A stretch of 64,000 bases of DNA from assembly GCF_001578185.1 (NCBI RefSeq), contig NZ_CP011008.1, forward strand, positions 3,004,001 to 3,068,000. Reading direction: 5' to 3'. This DNA comes from Peribacillus simplex (lineage in GTDB: Bacteria > Bacillota > Bacilli > Bacillales > DSM-1321). Positions 2,506 through 61,882 of this stretch are shown piece by piece. Numbering within the stretch: position 1 is the first letter of the stretch; each line of letters starts with the position of its first letter. The notes under the pieces were generated by a model that made no database searches, was not told the origin of the DNA, and saw only the letters and a list, made by a program, of their open reading frames with translations. The position numbers and the translations under genes are program-made.

Positions 2506-2706
2506 TGCTTGGAGGCTATTGAGGATAATCTTCTTCGGATATCAGTTATTGTAATCGCTTTGATCAAATTTCAGGAATATGCAAGTGGATTTAAACAGAC
2601 ATTACCATCTCAAATGCTTAAGAAAGTGACAGAAAAACATGTGAGAGATTTATGCACCAAGAAGAGAAGAAAACAAGTTAATCAAAGGGATGAAACCAAA
2701 GGCAAG

Positions 2707-2743
2707 AAAAAAGAAGCCTTTTGATGCTTCTCTTGTTTTGAAA
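2707..2743. terminator. Hairpin after gntR
   Basis: AGAAGC (2712-2717) pairs with GCTTCT (2726-2731), extended by CAAG/CTTG. The T tract is imperfect on + and better on -. About 200 bp downstream of the GntR stop. The intervening 2506-2706 and the following 2744-2990 carry no convincing gene. Confidence 0.5.
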
Positions 2744-2991
2744 GATGATGGATCGATTGGATTTTACTATGAAAGGGTATATTACGAATGATTCGCTGAA
2801 TGAATCCACTTACTGCTATAACCTTTTCTGATTTTGTTCTCCAAAGAAAAGAAAGAGTATATGCAATAAATCCAAACGAAAAAAGTAAAAAATAACAAAA
2901 ACCCTATAACTAATTTGCCCCTTATTCTTTTTGTGGGTCGTGGGTTTCACTTTATGAAAAAACCTCTTTCAAAAAAAGATAAATAGAGCAC

Positions 2992-32173: not shown

Positions 32174-32315
32174 AAGAAAAAAAACCTTCTCAAAGAAGAA
32201 GGTTTTTTGAAACATTCTCCTCATCTATCAAGCTCTGCTTGTTGGATTTAGCACCTTTGCCTAAGCTGGTTGCTGAGGTTTCTTCGGGCCAGTCCCTCCA
32301 CCTCTCTCGATAAGA
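32174..32315 (-). promoter_or_regulatory. SAM-I (S-box) riboswitch of yitJ-metH
   Basis: Minus strand: CTTATCGAGAGAGGTGGAGG, then GGGACTGGCCCGA, GAAACCTCAGCAACC, AAGGTGCTAAATCC and AGATGAGGAG, the canonical S-box blocks in order. The expression platform is a terminator at 32174-32212, AAAAAACCTTCTTC pairing with GAAGGTTTTTTTT. With SAM bound, transcription stops before yitJ. 57 bp from the terminator to the start. Confidence 0.96.
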
Positions 32316-32427
32316 TCCATTTATATAATTTTCACAAGATTTCAAAATTTGATTATATTTAATTTACATTAATAATCTGTCAATTTCAATACCTGATCGT
32401 CATTTTTTTCACTTTTGCAAAAATCAT

Positions 32428-43065: not shown

Positions 43066-43848
43066 TTGCTGAACGATTTTCAAGCCTTCATCCTTGGAAT
43101 CATTCAAGGCTTGACTGAGTTTTTACCTATTTCAAGTACTGGACATTTATATTTAGGACGGCATATATTCCATCTTGACGAGGCCGGCATTTTTCTTGAT
43201 ACCATGCTCCATATCGGTACATTGCTGGCATTATTGGTCGTCTACAAGAATGACATTATTTCGGTTTTGAAAAACCCTTTCTCCAAAATGACTCTGCTTC
43301 TCATTGCAGGGACGATCCCTGCAGTGATTGCCGGCATTTTACTTGGGGATTGGTTTGATGGCCTTTCAAAAACAGGGGTGACCATTGGCTGGGAATTTTT
43401 AGTGACCGGGCTGATTTTATGGGTAGCGGACGGTGTAAAAAAAGGTGGCAAGTCAATTAATGAAATTTCCATTAAGGATGCCCTGATCATCGGTACTTTC
43501 CAAGCTGCTGCCATCATGCCTGCTCTTTCGCGTTCCGGCCTAACGATAGCCGCAGGGCTCTTTTGCAGGCTTGATAGGGCCACGGCAGCTTATTTTTCCT
43601 TCTTGCTTTCAATTCCAGCCATTACGGGGGGCATTATATTTCAGATGAAACCAATAATTACAGGAGAAGTTCAACGGCTTCCAGTCACTGCGCTTTTCGT
43701 TGGTACCCTAGCCGCAGCAATCTTTGGTTATATTGCTGTAGTATGGATGATCGATTTCTTAAAAAAGCGTTCACTGAAAATATTCTCCATTTATGTATGG
43801 GCCCTCGGGGCAATCATTTTATTCATGCAATTCACAGGGAAGTTTTAA
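43066..43848 (+). CDS. uppP: Undecaprenyl-diphosphatase UppP (BacA)
   Basis: 260 aa membrane enzyme with about eight helices that recycles undecaprenyl pyrophosphate for wall synthesis; overexpression gives bacitracin resistance. Active-site motifs GLTEFLPISSTGHLYLG (Glu) and MPALSRSGLTIAAG (Ser/Arg). Starts at TTG 43066 behind TGGAGTGATG. A single gene; no obvious terminator, only a TCAAATTTCA/TGAAATTTGA hairpin at 43922-43960 without a T tract. Confidence 0.94.
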   Translation: MLNDFQAFILGIIQGLTEFLPISSTGHLYLGRHIFHLDEAGIFLDTMLHIGTLLALLVVYKNDIISVLKNPFSKMTLLLIAGTIPAVIAGILLGDWFDGLSKTGVTIGWEFLVTGLILWVADGVKKGGKSINEISIKDALIIGTFQAAAIMPALSRSGLTIAAGLFCRLDRATAAYFSFLLSIPAITGGIIFQMKPIITGEVQRLPVTALFVGTLAAAIFGYIAVVWMIDFLKKRSLKIFSIYVWALGAIILFMQFTGKF

Positions 43849-44049
43849 AGGAAGCATCAAGTTACCCTTGAAAAATCGGGCGAAGAAATCAGTTTTTCAT
43901 GAAAAAAAGCAAGCGTTTGCCTTCAAATTTCACCCTTCATAAAAAAGTTGAAATTTGACGAAAAAAAAAGGCAAAAAACCTATTCCCAAACCGATTTTTT
44001 TTTAGTATTATACCTTCGTAAGGGTCTTTTGATTTGTATAATTTCTGAC

Positions 44050-44200
44050 AATAAAAATAGGGAAGGCAAATGGTGCGCCACCGGTTTCCGGTTCTAGTGG
44101 GTTCGATTCCCACCCCGAAATTTTTTGATGAACGACTTAAAAAATTTCGAGGGTGGGCAGCGACTACGCATAAGAACTGCCCTCAAACGGAGGGACGGAA
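44050..44200 (+). promoter_or_regulatory. Structured leader of the GNAT gene, candidate translational switch
   Basis: A TATAAT box at 44037-44042 (weak -35 near 44015) should start a leader near 44050. Hairpins: GGTG-CGC-CACC (44072-44082), ACCGG-TTT-CCGGT (44080-44092), GTGGG-TTCGATT-CCCAC (44097-44113), identical in form to a tRNA T arm. CCCACCC CGAAATTTTTT (44109-44126) alternatively pairs with AAAAAATTTCG A GGGTGGG (44139-44157). GGGCAG (44155-44160) can pair with CTGCCC (44177-44182); CCCTC (44180-44184) can instead pair with GAGGG (44190-44194), part of the Shine-Dalgarno. Each helix excludes the next. Confidence 0.6.
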
Positions 44201-44755
44201 ATGTTAAAAAAGAGAGATTTCACAGATTGTTTTTCTCTTTATGAACAAATGACGCATCCAGATGTCTTCCCTTTCGTGCGCCATAAAGTAGATTCATATG
44301 AAGAATATGTTTTCATTACTAAGCAAACGATCGAGGCAGAAGATTCTGGGGAACTCATTTCACGAACAATCTTGGATGAATGGGAAAATCCCATCGGTTG
44401 TATTTCTTTATACGATATTGAAGATGGTGCAGGTTTCTTAGGCACATGGCTTGGCAAGCCTTTTCACGGGAAAGGGTATAATGCCATTGCAAAGGACGCT
44501 TTCTTTAAAGAGCTTTTTTTCGAGCTCGGTTTGGAAACAGTATTCATGCGTATTCGCAAAAAAAATATTCGCTCGATTAAAGCCGCGGAAAAGCTTCCCT
44601 ATGCTGTTAATGCCAACGAAACAAGAAAGTCTCTCTATGATCAGATCAATCATGAAGGAGATATCTTCGATTTGTATGAAATCCCGAAAGATTTATACAC
44701 CTTTCATATCCTTAGACAGCATGATGATGACGAACAGCAGTTACTTGAAGCATAA
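44201..44755 (+). CDS. GNAT-family N-acetyltransferase (RimJ/RimL-like)
   Basis: 184 aa. N-terminal KKRDFTDCFSLYEQMTHPDV, CoA-binding region FLGTWLGKPFHGKGYNAIAK and VFMRIRKKNIRSIKAAEKLP are typical. An unusual C-terminal tail rich in Asp/Gln (RQHDDDEQQLLEA) follows. Substrate unknown; the relatives include ribosomal-protein and aminoacyl acceptors. ATG 44201 follows GGAGGGACGG, which is the site sequestered in the leader. A terminator follows, so it is monocistronic. Confidence 0.85.
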   Translation: MLKKRDFTDCFSLYEQMTHPDVFPFVRHKVDSYEEYVFITKQTIEAEDSGELISRTILDEWENPIGCISLYDIEDGAGFLGTWLGKPFHGKGYNAIAKDAFFKELFFELGLETVFMRIRKKNIRSIKAAEKLPYAVNANETRKSLYDQINHEGDIFDLYEIPKDLYTFHILRQHDDDEQQLLEA

Positions 44756-46247: not shown

Positions 46248-47327
46248 TTATTTTTTTGCAGTCATTACTTCAAGTAATAATTCATACATTTCCGCTGCCG
46301 TTTTGAATGGGCGCTTTTGACGCATTTTCTCCTGATAACCTTCCGATTGATTCACTAAATCCGCTAATGTTGCATGAAAAATCCCCTCATTTAGATCCTC
46401 TTCTTGAATGACTTTACAAAATCCCTGTTTTTCAAAGCTAGAAGCATTTAAGATTTGATCTCCACGGGATGCATTGGCACTTAGAGGGATAAGCAACATA
46501 GGCTTTTGTAAACCTAGGAATTCAAATATTGAATTTGAACCTGCCCTTGATACGACGACATCAGCAGCAGCCAATAGATCGAATAATTCTTCATGTACGA
46601 ATTCAAAGGGAGCATATCCCCTTTGTTTCAATTCGTTTTTCACATTTCCCTTACCACAAATGTGAATAATTTGGTATTCCTTTAGTAGGGCATCAAGGTT
46701 ATCTGTAATCAAGTTATTGATTTTTACAGCTCCTAGGCTGCCGCCCATAACGAGTAAAACCGGTTTGTTATTCGTGAATCCACAAAATGCTTTACCAGCA
46801 GAAGCGTTACCTGTAAAAATCCCATCGCGCAATACAGCGCCAAGATACATGGCCTTCTCTTTCGGAAGATCTTTTTCCGTTTCTTGGAAGGTAGTGAAAA
46901 TTTTCGATGCAAGTGGCATCGCGATCTTATTAGCCAGACCAGGGGTATAATCCGATTCATGGATTGCAATCGGAATCCGCAGCATCCTGCCTGCCAAAAC
47001 GACTGGAACCGAAACGAAACCACCTTTAGAAAAAATGAAATCAGGTTTGGTCTTTTTTAATATTTTTCGTGCATCAAAAATCCCTTTTATGACCCGGAAA
47101 GGGTCTTTCATATTTTCAACAGATAGGTAACGTCGGAATTTCCCAACGGAAATCGTTTCATAACGGACCTCGGGAAATTCCGTTTCGATGATATTTTTTT
47201 CAATGCCTTTTTTTGAACCAATATAAGTAACATCCCAATCATGCTTCAAAAATTCCGGGATGATTGCTGCATTAACAGATACATGACCGGCAGAACCGCC
47301 TCCGGTAAATACTATTTTCTTAGTCAA
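46248..47327 (-). CDS. MurG-like UDP-GlcNAc transferase paralogue
   Basis: 359 aa, GT-B fold. KKIVFTGGGSAGHVSVNAAI with the glycine loop for lipid I, IFSKGGFVSVPVVLAGRMLR, HESDYTPGLANKIAMPLA, and VVSRAGSNSIFEFLGLQKPM, the UDP-binding motif. Makes lipid II from lipid I. In bacilli the main murG sits in the dcw cluster; this isolated gene resembles the second copy known in the B. cereus group, which is inference. Starts at TTG 47327 behind AAGGTGG. Confidence 0.88.
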   Translation of the reverse strand: MTKKIVFTGGGSAGHVSVNAAIIPEFLKHDWDVTYIGSKKGIEKNIIETEFPEVRYETISVGKFRRYLSVENMKDPFRVIKGIFDARKILKKTKPDFIFSKGGFVSVPVVLAGRMLRIPIAIHESDYTPGLANKIAMPLASKIFTTFQETEKDLPKEKAMYLGAVLRDGIFTGNASAGKAFCGFTNNKPVLLVMGGSLGAVKINNLITDNLDALLKEYQIIHICGKGNVKNELKQRGYAPFEFVHEELFDLLAAADVVVSRAGSNSIFEFLGLQKPMLLIPLSANASRGDQILNASSFEKQGFCKVIQEEDLNEGIFHATLADLVNQSEGYQEKMRQKRPFKTAAEMYELLLEVMTAKK

Positions 47328-47529
47328 TATTTCCACCTTCCAAACTTAAAAAATCACTTTGCATCCATATTACCATATATCCATGCCATTCATAACTTCA
47401 AAATGCAGTAAGTGAACCTTAAAATCCCATGATGAATGTAATTATCGATTATTTTTTCCTTTTTTAACATGAATATATTATAATCTTAGTATTCTACAAT
47501 ACTACAAGATACATTGGAGGAGTAATACA

Positions 47530-61686: not shown

Positions 61687-61882
61687 CAAAAGCCCCTTCA
61701 TATAAGAAGAGGCTTTAAAAAGCCATCTTCTTATCTCCCAGCCATTGGCTGCAAGAATTAGCACCGTGCCTTGTGGATTTCATGAAAATCCGGCGAAGAA
61801 TTCCGCCCCATTTTACAATGGAATTACGGTCGGTTGCTGGGCTTCATAGGGCTAGTCCCTCCACCTGCTCAAAATAAGAAAA
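61687..61882 (-). promoter_or_regulatory. SAM-I (S-box) riboswitch of mtnWXBD
   Basis: Minus strand: TCTTAT at 61880, AGGTGGAGGGACTAGCCC, GAAGCCCAGCAACC, a long extra P3 arm, GGTGCTAATTCTTGC, and GGGAGATAAGA closing P1 near 61728. The terminator AAAGCCTCTTC...GAAGGGGCTTT lies at 61687-61717; an alternative AAGAAGATGGCTTT/AAAGCCTCTTCTT antiterminator overlaps its left arm. SAM should turn the operon off. Confidence 0.95.

Follow-up and report, generated by a model that had tools for sequence, protein, structure and literature searches.

tRNA logic is found in several mRNA leaders, among them T-box leaders and thrS-type tRNA-mimic operators, and at the thrS operator the product of the gene binds a tRNA mimic in its own mRNA. 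Riboswitch aptamers combine a fixed sensor with changing platforms, and the fold of one of them, the guanidine-IV riboswitch, differs from the tRNA-like leader described here. For the yjdF (azaaromatic) riboswitch, the part of PMC9142559 available to us reports that the tRNA-like fold opens the Shine-Dalgarno (SD) and raises translation upon activating ligands, and that tRNAs grafted into leaders also raise translation. The guanidine-IV riboswitch and its Gd4v variant, an orphan as regards its ligand, are leader RNAs controlling GNAT acetyltransferases, as described in the available part of PMC9788692.

Here we analyse the leader of a GNAT gene in a 64,000-nt stretch of DNA, called the window throughout, which belongs to a genome of 5.5 Mb; the nearest named GNAT loci are those of Peribacillus. 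A T-box binds tRNA, whereas in the GNAT leader the RNA itself is tRNA-like. The leader shares with yjdF a tRNA-like four-way junction and a D-loop/T-loop elbow placed in a 5' leader (PMC9142559, available part), but differs from it in having a longer chain of pairing strands (S2/S3/S4/S5) between sensor and SD, and it shares with guanidine-IV/Gd4v a position upstream of a GNAT gene (PMC9788692, available part). Judged by sequence comparison, it is probably a switch of a recognised sort, with a tRNA-like sensor, and it matches no Rfam 15 family.

Results

Comparison with known RNA classes

The earlier note, made from the letters of the window, had matched the leader to no riboswitch class, and this held: scanning the window leader against Rfam 15, at the gathering threshold and at E<=10, returned no family, and neither did an Rfam scan of nine other leader loci. 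Specifically, yjdF (RF01764) was matched neither by the window leader (E<=10) nor by the nine other leader loci (E<=0.5). Conversely, R1, a covariance model that we built from the tRNA-like part of the leader, had no match at six yjdF sites, and no yjdF riboswitch was matched in the window's genome. Neither T-box leaders nor, in the Rfam scans, guanidine-IV/Gd4v were matched in the window. For tmRNA we obtained just a 17-nt T-arm fragment in one locus (L139), which scored 15.5 bits where the gathering score is 47, and ARAGORN called none in the window.

A tRNA gene was also rejected. ARAGORN found 0 tRNA genes in the window and in loci L189, L170 and L062, the best Rfam match of tRNA type was tRNA-Sec at 14.8 bits (gathering score 47, E 5.4), and the alignments had no 7-nt anticodon loop, no 7-bp acceptor and no CCA/discriminator end. 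Searches of the open-access literature, judged by titles and the opening lines of abstracts, found no description of the leader. The terms 'GNAT' and 'tRNA-like' were absent from the available parts of four candidate-RNA papers (PMC11109978, PMC8632094, PMC6429828 and PMC2864571), and term look-up in the available parts of PMC9788692, PMC9142559 and PMC12945691 found no description of the leader either.

Several other RNA-like features were seen along the way. The window has two SAM riboswitches (32218-32316 and 61728-61880, both on the minus strand) and a match to the Rfam 'sRNA' family S414 at 46626-46796 (+), which lies antisense inside a murG-like gene (46248-47336, -), so that this family may partly reflect protein-coding conservation; further S414 matches occur in L062 (4046-4219) and L191 (2611-2785). 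A tRNA-Sec-like sequence, its TCA anticodon read by eye, lies on the minus strand of L205 (G000:C2:75000-75500), in the second contig of the window's genome, and received no ARAGORN call.

The leader and its tRNA-like element

The leader sits on the plus strand upstream of a GNAT acetyltransferase gene (44201-44755, +; Acetyltransf_3, PF13302), presumably the regulated gene, and between two neighbours that we take from their sequences to be uppP-like (43066-43848) and LrgA-like. A promoter-like TTCCCA-17-TATTAT (43983-44011, +) scored 9/12 in a consensus scan, a weak score with 0.8 expected by chance; transcription from it would make the leader some 180 nt long. Downstream of uppP lies a long inverted repeat (43916-43975, with TTTGCC/GGCAAA and CAAATTTCA/TGAAATTTG) that by eye is perhaps the uppP terminator; the scan gave it no terminator score.

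Alignment, pair counts and covariance-model matches delimit a tRNA-like element at 44060-44116, with all parts on the plus strand. It opens with an acceptor stub, GGG/CCC (44060-44062 with 44114-44116), followed by the junction J1/2, AA, and by a D-arm, GGC-AAATGGTGC-GCC (44065-44079), after which comes A44080. A variable hairpin, CCGG-TTT-CCGG (44081-44091), takes the place of the anticodon arm, and a variable loop of 5 nt, TTCTA (44092-44096), leads into a canonical T-arm, GTGGG-TTCGATT-CCCAC (44097-44113). The T-arm-like hairpin proposed earlier is real and lies where it had been placed (44097-44101 with 44109-44113), but it does not stand alone: the complete tRNA-like element to which it belongs starts at G44060.

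The cloverleaf block was common to 30/32 upstream regions of GNAT orthologs, being absent from L054 and decayed in L060, and the hairpin between the two arms varied in sequence and length. Across 23 aligned elements, 97.7% of 345 pair cells were formed. Changes on both sides were found at 3/4 variable-hairpin pairs and 2/5 T-stem pairs, a result reached by 0/500 shuffles; further types of pair were no more numerous than among the shuffles (7 versus a mean of 8.9). For the D-stem and the acceptor stub, which showed no covariation across these 23 elements, the support comes from conservation.

From 184 loci with the GNAT we set aside L054 and L060, which have no T-loop; among the remaining 182 there were 113 distinct leaders. 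The D-loop GG, the TTC and A of the T-loop and the junction AA were present in 100% of them, the GG of the D-loop and the full TTCGATT were kept at 99-100%, and an elbow made of the D-loop GG and a T-loop TTCRANN with its T-arm was found throughout the 113. The variable-hairpin block ranged from 10 to 18 nt with no fixed anticodon. Outside Kurthia only the GGG/CCC of the acceptor is common in the alignments, the remainder being the AU strand of S2 (below). Over 500 pairs drawn at random from 64 sequences, the 49-nt RNA core had a mean identity of 97.4% (lowest 81.6%) and the GNAT protein, for the same pairs, one of 61.4% (lowest 41.5%); conservation is stronger in the leader RNA than in the protein encoded after it.

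R1 also matched tRNA genes, weakly. There were dozens of weak matches, and the ten weaker ones that we checked were tRNA genes. Six checked weak matches (26.8-28.9 bits) were tRNA-Gly(TCC) or tRNA-His genes, in a locus set whose lowest strong match reached 63.5 bits. tRNA-Gln and tRNA-Met were matched in G025 at 36.1 and 33.6 bits, and two matches in G808, at 36.7 bits, lay at tRNA-Asn. These weak matches lend independent support to the tRNA-like reading of the leader. The T-arm and T-loop of the tRNA-Gly(TCC) and tRNA-His genes are the same as those of the leader element, which unlike tRNA genes has a 3-bp acceptor, no CCA and no anticodon loop of fixed size, and lies inside an mRNA leader. 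Comparison among leaders shows the tRNA-like element to be conserved.

Distribution of the leader and linkage with the GNAT

The leader proved to be conserved both in the genus, where 34/36 genomes carried it at 87-100% identity (in two of the 34 the match spans just bases 2-130 of the 149-base query), and across the sampled order, which we infer from the named loci to be Bacillales. In the order, R1 matched 317/397 genomes at E<=0.01; 13 of them had E above 1e-4, where the tRNA matches also fall, and setting these aside left 304 strong matches. The GNAT profile A3 matched 308/397 of the same genomes at E<=1e-50. Both leader and GNAT were present in 304/397, the leader alone in 0 and neither in 89, and the GNAT stood without a strong leader match in four (G037, G038, G039 and G189). 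At class level R1 was found in 34/398 genomes at E<=1e-5, 27 of which belong to the order and 7 to a single further family (f49), and at phylum level in 5/299, of which four were of the order or f49 kinds and the fifth (G808) was a tRNA. No leader match was found in phage records; among plasmid records a single match appeared, in Cytobacillus spongiae (690-kb replicon).

The same pattern was seen locus by locus, with the GNAT present at 66/66 strong R1 loci tested (65 distinct places, one being represented twice). The six weak-match loci had no GNAT and are tRNA clusters. Comparison of genomes and loci thus shows a linkage of the leader with one GNAT ortholog group. The exception is L213 (G113:C23:9500-13500), a third copy in its genome with an intact leader (R1 match at 2672-2751, minus strand) and no GNAT. 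The next gene on the same strand there, about 140 nt beyond the SD, encodes a 180-aa protein that by eye is membrane-like and UPF0316-like, and this leader may be a relic or may have been recruited to another gene. The window's genome also encodes a second GNAT of the same family (L202, G000:C1:4558242-4558763), 73% identical and without a tRNA-like leader. The commonest neighbour of the GNAT, an amidohydrolase, was near only 24/64 loci, and so no fixed neighbour offers a clue to the substrate.

The chain of competing helices

From the T-arm to the start of the gene, five strands on the plus strand can exchange partners, giving four mutually exclusive helices. S1, GTGGG (44097-44101), is the 5' strand of the T-arm. 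S2 (44109-44126) consists of the 3' strands of the T-arm and the acceptor followed by GAAATTTTTT, and pairs with S1 or S3. S3, AAAAAATTTCGAGGGTGGG (44139-44157), pairs with S2 or, through GAGGGTGG (44149-44156), with S4. S4, CTGCCCTC (44177-44184), pairs with S3, leaving the SD free, or with the SD, hiding it. S5 is the SD of the GNAT gene, GGAGGG (44189-44194). The earlier note had described a long helix of 18 bp (44109-44126 with 44139-44157, A44150 being the bulge) and the SD helix CCCTC/GAGGG (44180-44184 with 44190-44194), and both are there. Its third helix, GGGCAG/CTGCCC, can also be formed (44155-44160 with 44177-44182), but the conserved form is another register, the 8-bp GAGGGTGG/CTGCCCTC (44149-44156 with 44177-44184). 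The bulged A of the long helix pairs in this S3:S4 helix, which would explain why it is retained.

The folding energy of the window leader was -59.9 kcal/mol, against a shuffle mean of -39.9 (z -4.7), with 0/200 dinucleotide shuffles as good, and its minimum-energy fold contains the long helix and the SD hairpin. For comparisons downstream of the sensor, L057, L061, L062, L063, L158 and L159 were left out as having no S3 anchor pattern (L057 is canonical by eye), and the remaining 107 leaders were clustered into 65 non-redundant ones.

The AU half of S2:S3 was paired in 632/650 cells (97.2%, compared with 45-76% in slid controls), and 7/10 pairs had changed on both sides. Its GC half was paired in 452/520 cells (86.9%) and showed almost no covariation, and the outermost pair, C44109-G44157, was formed in just 32/65 leaders. 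All 8/8 pairs of S3:S4 were formed in 46/65 leaders, compared with a mean of 6.8 and at most 14 among shuffles, the register being the best for each leader and the shuffles being handled alike. Kinship among the sequences inflates such pair counts, and swapping partners between leaders is less exposed to it. Native S2:S3 pairings averaged -24.0 and swapped ones -21.4, native S3:S4 pairings -17.3 and swapped ones -15.0, with 0/5000 permutations as good in either case; for S4:S5 the values were -10.4 and -10.1, and 102/5000 permutations did as well (the S3:S4 and S4:S5 tests took 61 of the 65 leaders). This last result makes S4:S5 the least supported helix.

Comparison among leaders thus shows S2:S3 and S3:S4, both of which covary, and neither a lack of conservation nor an absence of covariation from every helix, either of which would have spoken against the earlier reading, was what we found. 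The ordered chain S1:S2/S2:S3/S3:S4/S4:S5 that it had proposed was supported by covariation and swaps in the 65 leaders and by constrained folding, more weakly for S4:S5 and the release of the SD. Taken as a kind of RNA, the leader has features of a riboswitch, a conserved sensor and alternative helices that reach the SD, and is weakest at S4:S5. Moreover, in Kurthia (L061-L063) the tRNA-like element is kept with a different downstream arrangement before the SD, so that, as in riboswitch aptamers, the sensor is constant while the platform differs. The S3, S4 and S5 words also differ in L158 and L159, and the f49 loci such as L189-L191 differ or fit poorly (5/8 S3:S4 pairs in L189).

Energetics and access to the Shine-Dalgarno

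Within 44149-44203, the computed energies were -16.5 kcal/mol for the SD hairpin, -15.6 for the 8-bp S3:S4 helix and -10.9 for the GGGCAG register. In 61/65 leaders, eight or more of the 10 AU pairs in the long helix were present in the minimum-energy fold, and imposing the tRNA-like fold cost a median of 8.0 kcal/mol across the 65. This margin in favour of the computed OFF state would keep the switch OFF unless a partner, tertiary contacts or kinetic trapping intervened. With the tRNA-like fold imposed, the SD was less paired in 44/65 leaders, unchanged in 19/65 and more paired in 2/65. The claim that the T-arm-like state is ON follows from the strand logic and agrees with the freer SD of those 44 leaders. 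The window's own leader is among the 19 unchanged, which speaks against the switch: even with S3 free of S2, its SD hairpin lies slightly, by 0.9 kcal/mol, ahead of the anti-anti-SD helix.

In a constrained fold of L001, the AU part of S2:S3 was compatible with the tRNA-like fold, and it may thus offer S3 a toehold for displacing the T-arm. At least 5 T follow the G-run of the SD in 12/65 leaders, where the OFF hairpin may also terminate transcription. In L148, L149 and L152 the S4:S5 stem is followed directly by T6-T8, resembling an intrinsic terminator that overlaps the SD.

The GNAT protein

The window GNAT matched PF13302 at E 2.4e-13. Five residues were invariant in 68 GNAT sequences (G90, G92, N94, N122 and S125), and from their motif we take them to bind acetyl-CoA. 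By profile, the solved structures closest to the protein were RimJ/RimL-like proteins, spermidine acetyltransferases and MccE (E 4.6e-7), an enzyme that acetylates microcin C after its processing. L154 (E 1.4e-5) and the window protein (E 0.0065) resembled the GNAT part of ileS_w_GNAT, far below the family cut-off. GNAT-fold enzymes that use aminoacyl-tRNA exist (PMC12945691, available part), and together with the likeness to MccE and ileS_w_GNAT they are leads that may point to aminoacyl chemistry. The GNATs are acidic, with a median net charge of -7 and a pI of 5.4 over 128 sequences, which does not favour them as binders of the leader RNA. A defence role was considered and rejected, PADLOC giving no match on 2 proteins.

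Discussion

On the comparative evidence, we consider it likely that the leader acts in cis as an RNA switch, sensing through its tRNA-like domain, and that its ON state is the tRNA-like fold held by a partner. When ON, this fold would hold S2 in the T-arm and acceptor stub, leaving S3 (GAGGGUGG) free to pair with S4 (CUGCCCUC) and the SD exposed. When the fold is not stabilised, the AU hairpin adjacent downstream would zip into the T-arm by strand displacement, S3 would be consumed by S2, and S4 would pair with the SD and shut translation; in some lineages, where a T-run follows the S4:S5 stem, the OFF state may also end transcription. We infer the direction of the switch, the strand displacement and the stabilisation of the tRNA-like state by a partner.

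As for that partner, we tentatively favour a small molecule bound at the invariant junction and elbow, probably one that the GNAT uses as a substrate or that induces it. The analogy is with yjdF, where activating ligands let the tRNA-like fold open the SD; the case for a small molecule falls somewhat short of even. A tRNA-handling protein (for example RNase P, RNase Z, an enzyme modifying the T- or D-loop, or the ribosome) comes next, as a rather unlikely partner. It would bind the element and report on tRNA supply or processing, and its binding, a modification or a cleavage 3' of the acceptor stub would separate S2 from S3 and turn the gene on. Such a protein would find the canonical elbow letters in nearly every leader, the weaker R1 matches that we checked are real tRNA genes, and tRNAs grafted into leaders do increase translation (PMC9142559, available part). 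However, the conserved acceptor is only 3 bp long and has no CCA, and the D-loop and junction appear more uniform than generic recognition of tRNA would need. To our knowledge, such an acceptor is not a usual substrate of RNase P or RNase Z.

We regard it as improbable that the GNAT, itself acting on tRNA or aminoacyl-tRNA, regulates its own gene by binding the mimic that its message carries, in the manner of thrS. The linkage of leader and GNAT in 304/304 genomes and the remote likeness, by profile, to MccE and the GNAT part of ileS_w_GNAT would fit such autoregulation, but the acidity of the proteins would not, and GNATs without the leader occur, namely in four genomes of the order, in the paralog L202 and at L054. 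Moreover, with the tRNA-like state as ON, binding by the GNAT would be a positive feedback, which argues against it. Attenuation by a leader peptide starting in the D-loop, where ATG is present in 58/65 leaders and TTG in 7/65, is very improbable and we rejected it: counted from the start, the T-loop can lie in any of the three frames (32, 21 and 12 leaders), the end of the reading frame scatters over 26 to 172 nt ahead of the gene in 58 leaders, in the other 7 the frame runs into the gene, and the start is poorly spaced from GGGAAGG. A degenerate tRNA gene with chance hairpins and no regulation, which the tRNA-like architecture and the GNAT-less copy L213 might suggest, is hardly credible given the 97% conserved core, the covariation and the fixed linkage.

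Returning to the switch with a tRNA-like sensor, a fuller account, which we put forward as speculative and think unlikely to hold in every part, would make it a tRNA-related class of gene-control RNA, unrecognised so far, that takes the tRNA fold as ON, senses an aminoacyl- or tRNA-related signal and switches on a GNAT acetylating compounds like aminoacyl-adenylate or aminoacyl-tRNA. What the comparison itself provides is a structured RNA in 304/397 genomes of the order, without an Rfam 15 match and better conserved than its protein. It is an example, beside yjdF, of a tRNA fold that would serve as a regulatory domain of an mRNA, with a strand-exchange chain clear enough for compensatory mutations, and it points to a regulated role for a widely kept, uncharacterised acetyltransferase.
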